Source: Terriglobales bacterium (GTDB lineage: Bacteria; Acidobacteriota; Terriglobia; Terriglobales; Acidobacteriaceae). Taken from it: DNA of 64,000 nucleotides. Location: NCBI GenBank assembly GCA_025934735.1, contig JAICWP010000006.1, positions 124,001 through 188,000 of the forward strand, written 5' to 3'. Positions 7,153-63,146 of the stretch are shown piece after piece. The notes below the pieces were generated by a model that ran no database searches, was not told the origin of the DNA, and saw only the letters and a list, made by a program, of their open reading frames with translations. Numbering within the stretch: position 1 is the first letter of the stretch; every line of letters begins with the position of its first letter. The translations under genes were made by a program, and so were the position numbers.

Positions 7153-7254
7153 ACGTTGGCGCCACCAGCCACTACTGCCTGAGGGAATTCTCCCAAGTCT
7201 TCATTGTTTTATCGGCCGAAATTCCCTCGAGCAACTGGGTATCTCACCGGCATA

Positions 7255-7296
7255 GGGGTGTTTCGACTCGGGCGTGCGCCCTCGCTCAAAATGACA
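7255..7296 (-). repeat. Fixed-arm, variable-core intergenic repeat, copy 2
   Basis: Read on the minus strand: arm TGTCATTTTGAGCGA, palindromic core GGGCGCACGCCC, arm AGTCGAAACACCCC. A 45-bp block here (7254-7298) matches 27138-27182 at all but two positions by direct comparison. Confidence 0.7.
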
Positions 7297-7320
7297 GTCT
7301 TAAAAGCGGCGCTTCGCTTC

Positions 7321-9916: not shown

Positions 9917-10118
9917 CAGCAGGTGGACAATGCGGCTGAGCCGGGCGTCGGTGGGCGCGTGGGCTCCGGCTATGCCGAGCCGGGTTCGAGTTTTTCGGGC
10001 TGACCTTATGCCGCAATTATGAGGGAGGAGGAGGCGAAAGCAAAACTACACTTACGTGGCCACAGGCGCCCTCGCCTGTGCAGGCCGGTGGACAGCCGAG
10101 GGCGGGTCCCTACGCCAT

Positions 10119-11124: not shown

Positions 11125-14091
11125 TCATCCCAGCGCGTGCAGCGCGGAGCCGGCCTTTTCCCGCAGCACTTCGAGTTCAGCCAGGCGCTTGCGCAGGCCC
11201 TCCACCACGTGCGGCGGCGCCTTCTGCAGGAACGCGTCATTGCCCAACTGGCGGCGCTTGCCCTCAATTTCCCGCTCCACGCCTTCCAGTTCCTTCTGCA
11301 GGCGCGCGCGTTCGGCGGCCACATCAATCTTTTTTTCGAAAACCACGCGCACTTCGAACCGGGAAGTGGTACGCGCCCCGCCGGCCTTGGCCAGTGAAGC
11401 CTCCACAAAGTCCACGCTCTCCACCGTGGCCAGCCGCTCCACAGCGCCGCGGTTGTGCTCAATCATCTGGCGCACGCCGTCAACCGCATGGACCTGAATG
11501 GGCACGCGCTGCCGCGGTTCCACCTTCAACTCGGCGCGCAGGTTGCGCACATTCACGATCAAGTCCTGCAGGATGGCCATCTCCGTTTCCGCCTCCAGAT
11601 TGCGCTGGGCGGGGTCGGCCGACGGATACTCCACCAGCGCGATGGACTTGGCCGGCGGCTTGCCATCGTAAATGGCGTGCCAGACTTCCTCGGTGATGAA
11701 GGGCATGAAGGGATGCAGCAGCCGCAGCGCGCCTTCAAACACGCCCACTATGTTGCCGAAGGCGGCGCGGGCGGCCGCCTGATCGCCGTCTTCGCCTGCC
11801 AGGCGCGGCTTCATCAGCTCCACATACCAGTCGCAGAACTCGCCCCAGAAAAAGTCGTAGACGCGGCTGGCGGCCTCATCAAAGCGATAGGTTTCCAGCG
11901 CGCTGTTCACCTCCGCCGCCACCGCATTGAAGCGCGCGAGAATCCAGCGGTCTTCCAGCGTGGCGGGCTCGAATGCGGCAATACCTGTGTGGAGCGCGCC
12001 TGTGTGGGACCGGGGCTCCGCCCCGGTCTGGGCCGTGCCAAGCTCCCCTGTGTGGGACCGGGGCTCTGCCCCGGTCTGAGCCGTGCCAAGCTCCGCCCCC
12101 ACACCACCACAGAATTCCTTCAGTGACCACACGCCCGCCTGCTCGGCCCGGTCCACATTCATGAAAATGAAGCGCGCGGCGTTCCAGATCTTGTTGGCAA
12201 ACGCGCGATATCCCTCGGTGCGCTTGGGATTAAAAGCAATGTCGGTGCCCGGCGAAGCCATGGCCGCCAGCGTAAACCGCGTGGCGTCGGTGCCGTACTG
12301 CTCGATCACCTCGATGGGGTCGAGCACATTGCCCTTGGTTTTGGACATCTTCTGCCGCTCGGCATCGCGCACCAGTGCGTGAATGTACACTTCGCGGAAC
12401 GGAACGCTGTCGTCCTTACGGCCCCCGAAGCCGCTCAGCCGCTTGATGGCGGGGTCCTGCGCATGTCCCTGCATGAAGTGGCAGCCGTACATGATCATGC
12501 GCGCCACCCAGAAGAACAGGATGTCGCCCCCGGTAATCATCAGCGAGGTGGGATAGAACACCAGCTGATCGCGCGTCTTCTCCGGCCAGCCCAGCGTGGT
12601 AAAGGGCAGCAGGCCGGAGGAGAACCAGGTGTCGAGCACGTCGGTATCCTGCTCCACGCGCCCGCCGCATTTCGGACACTTGGCCGGCGCCTCGCGCGCC
12701 ACCACAATCTCGCTGCACTTGGCACTAGCGCAGTACCACGCCGGAATGCGATGTCCCCACCACAGCTGGCGCGAAATGCACCAGTCGTAAATATTCTCCA
12801 TCCACTGCAGGAAGATGCGGGTGTTGTTCTCCGGCGTGAAGCGGATCTCGCCCGTCTTCACCGCCTCCGAGGCGCGCTGCGCCAGGCTGGGCGAGCCATC
12901 GCGGCTGGCCTTGGTCATGGCCATGAACCACTGCGTCGAGAGCCGCGGCTCGACAATCGTCCGGCAGCGGTCGCACTTGCCGATGGGCACCACGTAATCT
13001 TTTTCCCCGGCCAGCAGCCCCTGCGTGCGCAGATCGCGCAGCACCGCCTCGCGCGCCTCAAAGCGCTCCAGCCCGGCATAGGCGCCGGCGTTTTCGTTCA
13101 TGAAGCCGCGCTCGTCCATCACGTCAATTTGCGGCAGGTTGTGGCGCAGCCCGGCCTGGAAATCGTTGGCGTCGTGCGCCGGAGTGACCTTCACCGCTCC
13201 GGTGCCAAACTCGGGATTGGCCAGCTCGTCCAGGATGATGGGAATTTCGCGCAGCATCAGCGGCAGCAGCACCTTCTTCCCGTGCAGGTGCTTGTAGCGC
13301 TCGTCGGCCGCATTCACCGCCACCGCCGTATCGCCCAGCATGGTCTCCGGACGCGTGGTGGCCACGGTGATGAATTCCTTTTTCGAGCCCGCCACCGGAT
13401 AGCGGATCTCGTAAAGCTTGCCCGGAGTTTCCTCGTGCTTCACCTCCAGGTCGGAGATGGCGGTGCCGCAGCGCGGGCACCAGTTCACGATGTACTTGCC
13501 GCGATAGATCAGGCCCTCTTCGTAGAGCCGGACGAACACCTCGCGCACCGCCCGCGAAAGGTTCTCGTCCATGGTGAAGTACTCGCGGCTCCAGTCAACC
13601 GAGGCGCCCAGGCGCTTCATCTGCTCCAGGATGGCGCCGCCGTACTCCCGCCGCCACTCCCACACGCGCTCGATGAAGGCTTCGCGGCCCACGTCGCGGC
13701 GGTTCTTGCCTTCCTTGGCCAGCTGGCGCTCCACCATCATTTGCGTGGCGATGCCGGCGTGGTCGGTGCCCGGCAGCCACAGCGTGAGAAAGCCGCGCAT
13801 GCGATGCCAGCGCACGATGATGTCCATCTGTGTCTGGTTGAGCATGTGGCCCATGTGCAGGCGTCCGGTGACGTTGGGCGGGGGCAGAAGCAGGGTGAAA
13901 ACGGGCTTCTGCGCCTCGGGCGAGCCGGGCGGCGGCGTGGGGGCCTGCGCGGCCGGCGAGGACGCGCCTTGCGGCGCGGAAGCTGCGGGCGGCGGCGTGG
14001 GCACGGAGAAGAGTTTCTCCCGCACCCAGTATTCCGCCCAGCGCGCCTCAATCGCGCTCGGGTCGTACGCCTTGGGCAGTTCGTGCGGCAT
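11125..14091 (-). CDS. valS: Valyl-tRNA synthetase
   Basis: A 988-residue class I synthetase with the HIGH-type motif HMGH (79-82), the connective editing domain with TTRPETMLGDTAVAVN, and the KMSKS-type loop KMSKTKGN. It charges tRNA-Val and edits mischarged threonine. C-terminal residues form the family's coiled-coil arm. Two insertions stand out: an Ala/Pro-rich stretch at residues about 31-62, before the Rossmann core, and two identical 16-residue repeats at residues about 666-697, just before the anticodon-binding domain. The latter are encoded by two 48-bp palindrome-containing units (listed separately). Divergent from the DUF262 gene, with 270 bp between. Confidence 0.96.
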   Translation of the reverse strand: MPHELPKAYDPSAIEARWAEYWVREKLFSVPTPPPAASAPQGASSPAAQAPTPPPGSPEAQKPVFTLLLPPPNVTGRLHMGHMLNQTQMDIIVRWHRMRGFLTLWLPGTDHAGIATQMMVERQLAKEGKNRRDVGREAFIERVWEWRREYGGAILEQMKRLGASVDWSREYFTMDENLSRAVREVFVRLYEEGLIYRGKYIVNWCPRCGTAISDLEVKHEETPGKLYEIRYPVAGSKKEFITVATTRPETMLGDTAVAVNAADERYKHLHGKKVLLPLMLREIPIILDELANPEFGTGAVKVTPAHDANDFQAGLRHNLPQIDVMDERGFMNENAGAYAGLERFEAREAVLRDLRTQGLLAGEKDYVVPIGKCDRCRTIVEPRLSTQWFMAMTKASRDGSPSLAQRASEAVKTGEIRFTPENNTRIFLQWMENIYDWCISRQLWWGHRIPAWYCASAKCSEIVVAREAPAKCPKCGGRVEQDTDVLDTWFSSGLLPFTTLGWPEKTRDQLVFYPTSLMITGGDILFFWVARMIMYGCHFMQGHAQDPAIKRLSGFGGRKDDSVPFREVYIHALVRDAERQKMSKTKGNVLDPIEVIEQYGTDATRFTLAAMASPGTDIAFNPKRTEGYRAFANKIWNAARFIFMNVDRAEQAGVWSLKEFCGGVGAELGTAQTGAEPRSHTGELGTAQTGAEPRSHTGALHTGIAAFEPATLEDRWILARFNAVAAEVNSALETYRFDEAASRVYDFFWGEFCDWYVELMKPRLAGEDGDQAAARAAFGNIVGVFEGALRLLHPFMPFITEEVWHAIYDGKPPAKSIALVEYPSADPAQRNLEAETEMAILQDLIVNVRNLRAELKVEPRQRVPIQVHAVDGVRQMIEHNRGAVERLATVESVDFVEASLAKAGGARTTSRFEVRVVFEKKIDVAAERARLQKELEGVEREIEGKRRQLGNDAFLQKAPPHVVEGLRKRLAELEVLREKAGSALHALG
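12001..12096. repeat. Two 48-bp palindromic tandem units inside valS
   Basis: Units 12001-12048 and 12049-12096 differ at only a few bases; each holds a near-perfect hairpin of the type ACCGGGGC-TCC-GCCCCGGT. Because 48 is a multiple of three, each unit adds 16 codons to valS without shifting the frame. A partial third unit is suggested by GTGTGGAGCGCGCC at 11986-12000. Hairpins of similar design lie outside genes at 63070-63126. Confidence 0.8.
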
Positions 14092-17235: not shown

Positions 17236-17320
17236 CCTAAAATCTTGAGAATAAAGAATTTAGCTCGCCATCCTAAAATCTTCTTTCCAAAGAATTTAGC
17301 TAAGGGGGTGGGGTGGGGGG
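17236..17320. repeat. 36-bp-period direct repeat followed by a G-rich tract
   Basis: CCTAAAATCTT...AAAGAATTTAGCT occurs at 17236-17265 and again at 17272-17301; a further partial CAAAGAATTT lies at 17224-17233. A run GGGGGTGGGGTGGGGGG follows at 17304-17320. The block is markedly AT-rich and then G-rich compared with the rest of the window and lies about 50 bp after the stop codon side of the STAS gene. Function unknown. Confidence 0.6.
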
Positions 17321-27027: not shown

Positions 27028-27395
27028 GCGGGCGAAGCGAGACAGGGTTCAGGAGTGTGGCCCGCGCCACTCTTAACCGCTATTTCTTAGCCGTGGGCCG
27101 AAATGCCTTCCACCTACTCAGCGCTTCTTGGCCGAATAGGGGTATTTCGACTCGGGCGTGCGCCCTCGCTCAATATGACAGTGAAATGTAAGGTGAGACA
27201 GAAGATGGTTCTACGAAATGCTGCTCTCCACCCCTTTCTTGACACTCCCGCGCACCCGCCGATATGCTAAATATTGCTTCCGTAAGAACTTGCGCCGCCT
27301 GTGGGCAGTTGTCGAGGCGGCCGCCAGTAGCCAGCAGCAGTTTGCGCTTCCCGCGGGCCTTCACGGTCGGGTTGGGGACGTGCGGGAGGTTCCAG
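27028..27395. other. Gene-free stretch with a dispersed repeat
   Basis: No gene is supported here. The stretch includes a fixed-arm repeat at 27139-27180 and leads to the ribosome binding site of yceD. A promoter for the yceD-rpmF-plsX-fabD operon must lie here, but I see no clear -35/-10 pair. Confidence 0.5.
27139..27180 (-). repeat. Fixed-arm, variable-core intergenic repeat, copy 4
   Basis: On the minus strand: TGTCATATTGAGCGA, palindromic core GGGCGCACGCCC, then AGTCGAAATACCCC. Nearly identical to the copy at 7255-7296, about 20 kb away. Confidence 0.7.
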
Positions 27396-30444: not shown

Positions 30445-30799
30445 AGTTATGTAGATGCAAAGGGCCAGCAGAGCGACAGCACCGCTTGGACGCGGACCAG
30501 TCCAGGTGAATCTTCCCCACAGGGGCTAAAGCCCCGACTTTAGGCAGCTCCATACGGCACGGCTGAAGCCGTGCCCGTTCGAAACATGTGGATGGCCTTA
30601 GCTGAAGCCGTGCCTTCCGAAGCATGTGGATGGCCTTAGCTGAAGCCGTGTGCTTTCAGAACGAGCGTGGTCTTATGGCAATGGATGGATTCGCCGGCGC
30701 CGCCGACGCTGCCGTGCTCAAGCATCAATGTCGCAGGGCTCAATGCTGAGGAATGAGTGCTGATTGCGGGGATTTCGAACGGGCAATCATCAAAGATGA
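30445..30799. other. Gene-free stretch with short tandem repeats
   Basis: No coding region is supported. It includes palindromes GGGGCTAAAGCCCC and GGCACGGCTGAAGCCGTGCC and the tandem repeats listed at 30564-30659. Confidence 0.6.
30564..30659. repeat. 38-39-bp tandem repeat with palindromic GGCTGAAGCC
   Basis: Units start at TGAAGCCGTG (30564, 30603 and 30641) and carry CATGTGGATGGCCTTAGC; two complete units and a partial third are seen. The related ACGGCTGAAGCCGT palindrome also occurs at about 26145-26158. Confidence 0.7.
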
Positions 30800-35592: not shown

Positions 35593-36423
35593 ATGAGCAT
35601 TCGAAACCTTTCCTGGCGGGTAACTCGCGTTGCTGTGTTCTGCGCTGCAATCGTGTGCGCTCATCCTCTATTCGCTGCCTCCCAAGGTACTGTGTCCCAG
35701 GCAGACGCGGCCCTGATGCAGGCTTTGGCTGAGCACGACCGCACATCGCTGGCTGCCCTGCTCGACCCTGATTTCACCTGGATTGACTCCCGGGGGAGGG
35801 GGCAGGATCGGGCGATGGTGCTGCGCAACCTGCCTTCCCCTGCTAATCCAGACGAGCGAATACAGGTTCGGGAATATGGCACGGCCGCGGTGGTTCGCAC
35901 GGATCGCGAGCGAATGCACGTCCTGCGCGTCTGGGTGTTACGGCCAGCCGGCTGGCGCGCTCTGCTCTACCAGGAGGTCTTGCAGGTGACCCAATCAGAG
36001 AGTCCGGGGCCCGGCTCCAGCGATTGCGAGAATCCCTGCCGCTCCATACCGTTCACGCCGCAAACCGAGTCCGAGAAAGCCGCCGTCGCCTCCTGGCAAG
36101 GGGTGATGCGCGCCATGGCCAACGACGATGCGGAGGCCTACGCACGCCTGATTGCCGACGAGTTCACGGCTACCGATACGCACCACACACGGCCGTTCAG
36201 CAAGCCTGACCGGCTCATCCAGATCGAAAAGCTGAAGCAAACAGGAAAGCACTCTGCGCCGCCTTCCCTGGTCTCTGCCCGGATGTTTGATTTGGGGGAG
36301 ACCGTCATGATGATCGCCCGTGAGCAGCGCCCTAACCACAAGCCCTATTTCAACACCCGCATGTGGGTGAACCGCGATGGCCGCTGGCAGATGCTGTTCA
36401 GCTTCAATACGAGGATTGAGTAG
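35593..36423 (+). CDS. Exported protein with two NTF2-like (DUF4440) domains
   Basis: About 276 residues from the ATG at 35593. A signal peptide ends at about PLFAASQG. Two SnoaL/DUF4440-like units follow: the first contains ALMQALAEHDRTSLAALLDPDFTWI, the second VMRAMANDDAEAYARLIADEFTA and the closing MWVNRDGRWQMLFSFNTRIE. NTF2-like proteins include isomerases and ligand-binding proteins; the role here is unknown. The last 33 codons of this gene are found again, degenerate, at 37842-37943. Confidence 0.72.
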   Translation: MSIRNLSWRVTRVAVFCAAIVCAHPLFAASQGTVSQADAALMQALAEHDRTSLAALLDPDFTWIDSRGRGQDRAMVLRNLPSPANPDERIQVREYGTAAVVRTDRERMHVLRVWVLRPAGWRALLYQEVLQVTQSESPGPGSSDCENPCRSIPFTPQTESEKAAVASWQGVMRAMANDDAEAYARLIADEFTATDTHHTRPFSKPDRLIQIEKLKQTGKHSAPPSLVSARMFDLGETVMMIAREQRPNHKPYFNTRMWVNRDGRWQMLFSFNTRIE

Positions 36424-36533
36424 TCGTCCGGCCGCAACCTCCGCGAGACGCTGTTGTCGGCGCGGCTATGAGTTGATGACGCGCCAATGATGCAATCCGC
36501 CTGCACGAGCAAACAGGAGTAAGCTGGCAAGCA

Positions 36534-37682: not shown

Positions 37683-37862
37683 CTACTGTCGCACTGAAGT
37701 AGTCCAGATCATGCCAATCGTTAGGACGATGATGATGATGCTCGTTCCCCATGCGATCACATTCGCAATTCTGGAGTTTGTGTGTACGCCCATTACCTTG
37801 TTGCGATTAACCAGAATCAACATGAAAACCAACAAGAACGGGAGCAGCGCAGCAACCATAAG
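37683..37862 (-). pseudogene. C-terminal remnant of an Nramp-type divalent metal transporter
   Basis: The minus strand encodes about 60 residues including LLPFLLVFMLILVNR, NSRIANVIAWGTSIIIIVL and a final short tail, which match the last two membrane helices of Nramp/MntH transporters (pattern: LP-x-hydrophobic, LVN-x-x-x-x-MG, NSR-x-x-N-x-x-AW). The rest of the roughly 400-residue gene is missing: upstream, the sequence switches abruptly to a copy of the DUF4440 3' end. It is therefore a fragment, unless short forms are made. Confidence 0.65.
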
Positions 37863-37943
37863 CCTTACCTCAACACCCACATATGGGTGAACCGTGACGG
37901 CCGCTGGCAGATGCTGTTCGGCTTCAATACTAGAATTGAGTAA
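37842..37943 (+). pseudogene. Degenerate second copy of the DUF4440 gene's 3' end
   Basis: In the plus frame starting at 37842, 33 codons and a TAA align with the end of the gene at 35593-36423: 28 of 33 residues are identical by my direct comparison, including WVNRDGRWQMLF and FNTRIE. There is no start and no upstream part. Similarity continues past the stop codon (TCGTCC and CCGC). Confidence 0.75.
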
Positions 37944-38075
37944 TCGTCCCGCCGCAGGCTGGGTGTAGGCACATCATTCGTAAGCTGCGGGAGCGCGGGC
38001 TGTTCGGAAAATGCGGCAGCAGTTCTGCTCGGCACGCGCGAGTGCCAGCAGTTCTAATAAGGGAGGCAGCGGTTC

Positions 38076-54288: not shown

Positions 54289-54437
54289 GCAGGGGTATGC
54301 GATCGGGCAGCCAAGCCCAATTTGCGATTGTAATTCACGATGATGGTGTGGAGGCAGGACTTCGCCCACCCGCCCAGCACGGAGCCCCGTGCCCACACAG
54401 GTCACGCCAGGCAGGCCCTCTCTCGCGCATCAAGCAA

Positions 54438-63069: not shown

Positions 63070-63126
63070 CCGTGTGGGGGCGGAGCTGTGCTCCGCCCAT
63101 GGATGGGGCAAAGCCCCGCCCCCATG
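63070..63126. repeat. Paired GC hairpins
   Basis: GGCGGAGC-TGT-GCTCCGCC (63079-63097) and GGGGC-AAA-GCCCC (63105-63117) within the outer pair TGTGGGGGC...GCCCCCATG. The design resembles the units inside valS at 12001-12096. Confidence 0.6.
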
Positions 63127-63146
63127 CGAGCTGCAAGGGTGTCCAG

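Follow-up and report, generated by a model that had tools for sequence, protein, structure and literature searches.

In this study, we analyzed an insert in the valyl-tRNA synthetase gene (valS) of a Terriglobales bacterium (assembly GCA_025934735.1), located within a stretch of 64,000 nucleotides, hereafter the window (contig JAICWP010000006.1, here C8, positions 124,001 to 188,000), of a genome of 4.94 Mb in 50 contigs. The insert is confirmed as a pair of palindromic repeats read in frame. The explanation we favor, with a probability of roughly 85%, is that two tandem copies and a partial third copy of a repeat resembling repetitive extragenic palindromic (REP) elements, spread through the genome, landed in a flexible linker of the enzyme. 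The features concerned are listed below by window position.

11125-14091, minus strand: valS, valyl-tRNA synthetase, 988 aa (open reading frame, ORF; Pfam; PDB 1gax, E 2.3e-214)
12049-12096, minus strand: unit 1, residues 666-681; in coding direction the decayed hairpin H2, the perfect hairpin H1 and the CCCACACA tag (covariance model E 2.7e-5)
12001-12048, minus strand: unit 2, residues 682-697; tandem copy, 92% identical in the repeat-finder register (covariance model E 2.6e-5)
12056-12076, unstranded: perfect palindrome, 9-bp stem, 3-nt loop
12008-12028, unstranded: perfect palindrome, 9-bp stem, 3-nt loop
12099-12104, minus strand: opening tag GTGTGG (CCACAC on the plus strand), followed by GGGCGGAGC, the left arm of the decayed second hairpin
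12050-12055, minus strand: closing tag CCACAC of unit 1
12002-12007, minus strand: closing tag CCACAC of unit 2
11987-11992, minus strand: third closing tag CCACAC, at the end of a short partial unit and beside the codons GGT ATT GCC

The ValS protein matched the Pfam domains tRNA-synt_1 (residues 60-620) and Anticodon_1 (residues 714-865), and the 32 inserted residues (666-697) lie between the catalytic and the anticodon-binding domains. At the DNA level, the insert is a 48-bp direct tandem repeat, 92% identical, spanning 11993-12088 in the register of the repeat finder, and the palindrome of each unit reads GACCGGGGC-TCC/TCT-GCCCCGGTC. In coding order, the array starts with GTGTGG, a decayed hairpin, perfect hairpin 1 and CCCACACA, and ends with decayed hairpin 2, perfect hairpin 2, CCCACACA and the short partial unit with the third CCACAC; the letters GTGTGGGGGCGGAGC at its opening tag were found again at other family members. 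A covariance model trained on 20 copies, the ValS units not among them, placed the two units at 12001-12048 and 12049-12096, thereby reproducing the coordinates of the initial annotation, which had described two 48-bp units with a perfect hairpin each, adding 2 x 16 residues before the anticodon-binding domain. Between the motifs NAARF and LEDRW, the window ValS has a linker of 80 residues; that of G010, the nearest row to it on the tree, has 48, a gap of exactly two units, and the G010 linker had no hairpin. In the ValS of the relatives read, the 32-residue insertion was absent at the same place.

The 48-bp unit proved to be a genome-wide repeat by both methods of counting. Searching the host genome with the ValS repeat region by blastn gave 58 matches, and the covariance model gave 131 matches at E<=10; copy numbers of the family are lower bounds, because the model search scored 150 of 7219 first-look candidates. 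The family consists of hairpin H2 (7-bp stem), the letters CTG, hairpin H1 (8-bp stem; GACGGGGC-AGA-GCCCCGTC and variants) and the tag CCCACAC, with an element length of 47-48 bp and CCCACAC/GTGTGGG as the constant tag. GTAG/CGTC is not the constant tag of the family; some left ends read GTAG, not as a rule. Among 447 kb of sequence, selected for the most part around matches, a hairpin stood directly upstream of 44 of 104 CCCACAC tags. Three control tags gave 0 of 50 (reversed), 4 of 249 (permuted) and 0 of 104 (complementary). In view of these counts, chance is not a fair explanation of the ValS units. Moreover, the alignment of 20 copies contained 34 cells with two-sided stem changes against a shuffled mean of 9.7 (34 was reached in 0 of 500 shuffles), and sliding the stem partners destroyed the pairing.

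We carried 100 of the 131 places forward, leaving out 20 opposite-strand overlaps and 11 matches with E >=0.4, and 99 of them had sequence for the reading of frames and tags. By the frame test, 93 of the 99 lay outside genes, which indicated a dispersed and mainly intergenic family, as in REP elements. The right tag was present at 84 of the 99 places and the left tag at 10, and the tags were inverted in some copies, a trait that bears on REPINs (two inverted REPs with outward tags) and on MITEs (terminal inverted repeats with a target-site duplication). The family is unevenly spread, with 35 of the 100 places on contigs C17, C37 and C49. The counts per contig were 14 for C17, 11 for C37, 10 for C49 and 6 for C50; these dense contigs are perhaps islands or gene-poor regions. 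Two further members are found in the window.

63071-63128 (C8:187071-187128), unstranded: intergenic two-hairpin member (covariance model)
54353-54399, plus strand: weak decayed member, E 0.12, outside genes by the frame test

The first of them corresponds to the hairpins outside genes that had been noted at 63070-63126, where the model matched 63071-63119 on the minus strand (E 6.6e-4) and 63080-63128 on the plus strand (E 7.4e-3). Tandem spacing between genes varied from 32 to 117 nt, compared with 48 nt in ValS, among 15 same-strand spacings read by eye from the model match list, in which some matches are weak; a spacing of 48 was seen twice outside ValS. Eight of the 15 were multiples of three, which ruled out the idea that the ValS array alone has a spacing divisible by three. 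The initial annotation is supported in its reading of a palindromic repeat able to enter coding genes, and both of its proposed checks came out as it had predicted; the role it gave to a length divisible by three was not supported by these spacings. In ValS, the tag is followed by GGYATTGC, a candidate target sequence, and several intergenic copies have similar letters at this position; no target is claimed for the family, since position counts over the 84 places showed only a weak preference.

Copies inside genes were recognized by the frames that run through a copy together with coding-like codon usage on both sides, a test that needs an uninterrupted frame. Six of the 99 places, in five genes, were assigned in this way: ValS (two units), an aconitase/LeuC-like fusion, PurL, LipB and MutL. 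The copies found keep the frame, as the initial annotation had expected of all in-gene copies, with the restriction that frame-broken copies are invisible to the test. Open frames are a general property of the element: 93 of the 99 copies were open in five or six of the six frames, and the other six in three or four. The peptide GAEPR-x-HT was read from the element in ValS, the LeuC-like protein and MutL; PurL reads the element in another frame (GQSPVPT) and LipB reads the opposite strand. In the LeuC-like fusion, the copy lies between the two Pfam domains of the gene, and none of the four full-length relatives has the insert. In alignments to solved homologues, the insert of PurL coincided with a gap, that of LipB lay between aligned blocks and that of MutL in a region of poor alignment. 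Of 11 relatives, 10 had no extra residues at the MutL site and G012 had a shorter, different stretch; for LipB an insert of the same length was present in G008 and none in G010.

The ValS linker itself is a recurrent docking site with turnover, and not the site of one old insertion, because hairpins of several families and in both orientations occupy it in 22 of 98 genes. Both anchors for linker length were present in 104 of 108 ValS loci, and 98 of 107 could be read for hairpins; four of these 98 repeat an identical protein, so that the tree and the survey of other loops used 94 distinct sequences. The named loci are the best 80 of 438, for which reason the sample leans to close relatives, almost all of them acidobacterial metagenome bins (Terriglobia, Acidobacteriaceae, Acidobacteriales, Acidobacteria and Sulfotelmatobacter). 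Perfect linker hairpins with stems >=8 bp were present in 22 of the 98 genes, the window included, compared with a mean of 1.0 and a maximum of 4 in 60 codon shuffles. Per kb, the linker contained 2.96 such hairpins, and the remainder of the gene 0.167. The palindromes were framed by tags in some rows, among them L254, L258, L264 and L280, and the linkers of several relatives showed both tags.

It could be supposed that one insertion in an acidobacterial ancestor was kept in the linker while its stems drifted by paired changes. Such a history would agree with the use of the same linker in many rows, with the density of the closing tag CCACAC (1.57 per kb in the linker vs 0.20 in the rest of ValS) and with the LipB insert, which in the host genome and in G008 is in register with different stems. 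We consider it improbable, because the orientation of the GGACAGCCGAGGGCGGCTGTCC family in L257 is opposite to that shared by L264, L304 and L324, because families differ between close rows, and because the row nearest to the window has no hairpin. On a FastTree tree of 94 rows with the linker excluded, hairpin presence required at least 18 changes and hairpin type at least 24, where the types are rough classes of our own and 28 of 91 inner branches are weak. Likewise, L265 and L273 are 95% identical over the 924 nt upstream and yet differ in their second hairpin.

Palindromes also occupy other loops of ValS. A hairpin and tag of the window type lie about 105 residues after the NAARF motif in L299 and L319, the same palindrome type occurs in two loops of L329, and palindromes were also seen in L304 (ORF residue 522) and L306 (ORF residue 502). 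In another loop (around residues 319-360), the ValS of L030 (G006) has three 39-bp tandem units in frame with GGCGCGGGTTTACCCGCGCC or a variant. Palindromes of the GGACAGCC / GGACGGCC type stand just upstream of the ValS start codon, outside the gene, for example in L257, L294, L302 and L323.

An AlphaFold2 model of the window ValS, built with 35 ValS sequences, had a mean pLDDT (predicted local distance difference test) of 72.9. Residues 665-700 were below 50, between the better-modelled helices 622-651 and 712-733, a pattern weakly consistent with a disordered linker extension. The initial guess of a surface loop fits this low-confidence segment, for which the model is weak evidence. The position between two domains could also suggest that the mRNA hairpin is functional, for example by delaying translation until the catalytic domain has folded, and the folding energy of the insert region (-70.4 kcal/mol, z -2.55, with 2 of 200 shuffles folding as well) would be in keeping with this. 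However, 76 of the 98 ValS linkers are without such a hairpin, similar palindromes occur in other ValS loops and in unrelated enzymes, and the Rfam search gave no fitting family (best E 0.91, far below the gathering score); we therefore judge a function of this kind to be very unlikely.

The palindromes of the relatives were also traced beyond ValS. At E<=0.01, the covariance model found 49 matches in G008, 1-4 in six other genomes (two in G010, the nearest ValS relative) and none in seven, across 14 genomes; with such differences the family of the window is patchy. The pattern GGACAGCCGAGGGCGGCTGTCC, with <=1 mismatch, occurred in 1-152 copies in 17 of 18 genomes, ValS copies included, with a backward control of 0. 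It numbered 7 to 100 in the seven genomes with this type or a close variant in the ValS linker, and was also common in genomes whose ValS carries another hairpin type. For the CGGGTC-type hairpin, the pattern ACCGGGTCNNNGACCCGGT matched in 7 of 7 genomes chosen for this type and in 4 of 12 others, and the palindrome ACCGGGTC occurred beyond the ValS copy in 6 of the 7 compared with 4 of the 12. The two palindrome families of ValS linkers that were tested are thus multicopy in most host genomes. In G036, 6 of 68 copies of the GGACAGCCGAGGGCGGCTGTCC family were read in frame in five genes; the copies came from 40 chosen stretches of the 100-place list, and one of seven flagged cases (L369) was dropped as a doubtful gene. 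By Pfam, the host genes were MnmE (two copies), UbiD, an AIRS-fold gene (SelD-like in our own reading), a Dus-family gene and B12-dependent methionine synthase.

These distributions also bear on the possibility that the palindromes arose by chance in a GC-rich, fast-evolving linker or by an error of assembly. Perfect hairpins do occur elsewhere: a 400-kb sample of the host genome, not chosen by matches, contained 20 in genes and 16 outside (stem >=8, coding fraction 0.81). The 20 in-gene hairpins were diverse and, by eye, unlike the ValS-type family; since 0 of the 131 listed places fall in this sample, it displays background chance hairpins alone. Opposed to chance or artefact are the genome-wide family, the model match to copies unseen in training, the codon-shuffle control, the empty backward control of one pattern and the five separate genes that stay open, and linkers of this kind also occur in genomes that other projects assembled. 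We regard this explanation as extremely unlikely.

Five matches to Y1_Tnp (PF01797) were detected in the host genome. One of them, C37:50042-50227, lies between family copies (C37:49813-49894 and C37:50400-50616); next to two further Y1_Tnp genes stands another palindrome, GGCACGGCTGAAGCCGTGCC or a variant of it, and no such palindrome was seen at the flanks of the last two. This flanking pattern would fit the scheme of REP-associated tyrosine transposases (RAYTs), with a separate repeat for each transposase, and suggests that the family may be moved by a RAYT-type Y1 enzyme. In the window, at 30555-30650, tandem 38-bp units (92% alike) lie beside the palindrome GGCACGGCTGAAGCCGTGCC, the same as at the flank of the Y1 transposase gene L084.

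Taken together, we propose that the REP-like element spreads in the genome, and that the probable agent is a Y1 HUH enzyme with the single-stranded hairpin as its substrate, as suggested by the flanked gene and by analogy with REP biology. Most copies would settle between genes and a few would enter them. Copies in tolerant loops with a net insertion that is a multiple of three would survive and be translated as a loop, which should be easy because the element is open in nearly all frames, and insertions that break the frame of essential genes would be lost by selection. Local tandem duplication would then lengthen arrays, both between genes and in ValS, where it probably produced the second copy. 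The linker loop is presumably disordered and the effect of the insert on ValS may be near neutral.

Several observations weigh against the proposed landing of a mobile repeat in the linker. The exact insertion ends and any target duplication would be readable from an empty site in the same species, which the comparison genomes do not offer; the ValS linker is highly variable and alignments there are uncertain. GTGTGG reaches 2.51 per kb in the linker compared with 0.30 in the rest of ValS, and at least 6 of the 24 linker occurrences are in-frame Gly-Val-Trp codons that look native and contribute to the enrichment of the tag. That the in-gene copies are in frame is partly by construction, because the tests require an open frame. 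The LipB insert is common to G008 in the same length and register and may be inherited, and the PurL case is weaker because its loop varies throughout the 11 relatives, two of which (G008 and G013) have what look by eye like remnants of palindromes there. The RAYT-like match on C37 is weak (25.4 bits vs a cut-off of 23), its ORF is without a Pfam match at 1e-5, and just one of the five PF01797 matches is flanked by the ValS-type family. Furthermore, the ValS model is mediocre and several conserved stretches are likewise below pLDDT 50; the ACCGGGTC pattern is less clean, its backward control having matched in 4 of the 12 other genomes (0 of the 7 chosen), and in G042 its match is the ValS copy alone.

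Beyond the landing of the repeat in ValS, we put forward a more tentative idea, which is conceivable and on balance doubtful: the ValS linker and other tolerant loops might be permanent members of the genomic REP population, with new variants replacing old ones inside a coding gene, be it that they insert specifically at the tag already there or that intergenic copies convert the resident one, so that loops of essential enzymes would evolve in concert with a non-coding repeat.

Other repeats were also seen in the window. A 47-bp repeat containing GGGCGTGCGCCC (7252-7298 and 27136-27182, 96% identical) looks like another short dispersed family. The palindrome CACAGGCGCCCTCGCCTGTG, of another hairpin family, lies at 10059-10086 between two minus-strand ORFs; this family was also seen beside a copy of the window family near C17:141164. 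In addition, a 118-nt direct repeat, 86% identical, occurs at 36319-36436 and 37839-37956, 1.5 kb apart, and a 30-nt AT-rich sequence occurs twice at 17236-17301 (80% alike, 36 nt apart).

In a wider sense, loops of essential enzymes appear to be reshaped again and again by short DNA repeats dispersed in the genome, and the findings suggest that in a widespread soil phylum such palindromes continually supply these loops with new peptide. Because one orthologous loop has been hit many times, the ValS linker offers a natural replicate series for site targeting, the rate of turnover and the needs of a tolerated insertion.

Among known systems, Rickettsia palindromic elements (RPEs) lie in frame in genes unrelated to one another and give the protein an additional peptide where this is tolerated. 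The initial annotation had compared the ValS units with them, and the likeness holds in the way both work, in frame in unrelated protein genes (five of the host genome and five of G036, where open frames alone were looked for). By description, the ValS family is set apart from the RPEs by its 47-48 bp and two hairpins, and together with the GTGTGGG tag these make REP-like the better term. The excerpts of PMC3733652 show that the two groups meet, in that the intragenic CGTC repeats of R. conorii correspond to RPE-4 and RPE-6, RPE-1 being a longer palindromic insertion.

With the REP, REPIN and RAYT systems, as far as excerpts of PMC3733652 and of PMC3116915, whose subject is REPINs, describe them, the ValS family shares short palindromes, many mostly intergenic copies and copies in core genes; some copies may form inverted pairs, and one weak Y1 transposase match is flanked by copies. 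In the former source, GTAG and CGTC REPs are reported inside ORFs of several species, many of them DNA synthesis or repair genes and some tRNA synthetases, and different REPs occupy about the same recB site in two Xanthomonas species (PMC3733652). The present family differs in its tag (GTGTGGG/CCCACAC, not GTAG/CGTC), in its acidobacterial host and in the repeated use of one ValS linker by changing families across a clade. For Acidobacteria, the same excerpts describe Y1 transposases accompanied by inverted repeats of other kinds (PMC3733652). Those TIRYT genes and TIR repeats, of Koribacter and others, resemble our case in phylum and in Y1 transposases with flanking inverted repeats, one of which is a repeated family, and differ, by their description in these excerpts, in that copies inside genes are not reported (PMC3733652). 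Among the matches listed in open-licence PMC literature and in the excerpts of PMC3733652, we found no GTGTGGG tag, no intragenic copies in this phylum and no repeated occupancy of one loop across a clade. REPs inside genes are thus already in print (PMC3733652), and, measured against these sources, what the present case adds is the tag, the intragenic copies in this phylum and the repeated occupancy of one loop.

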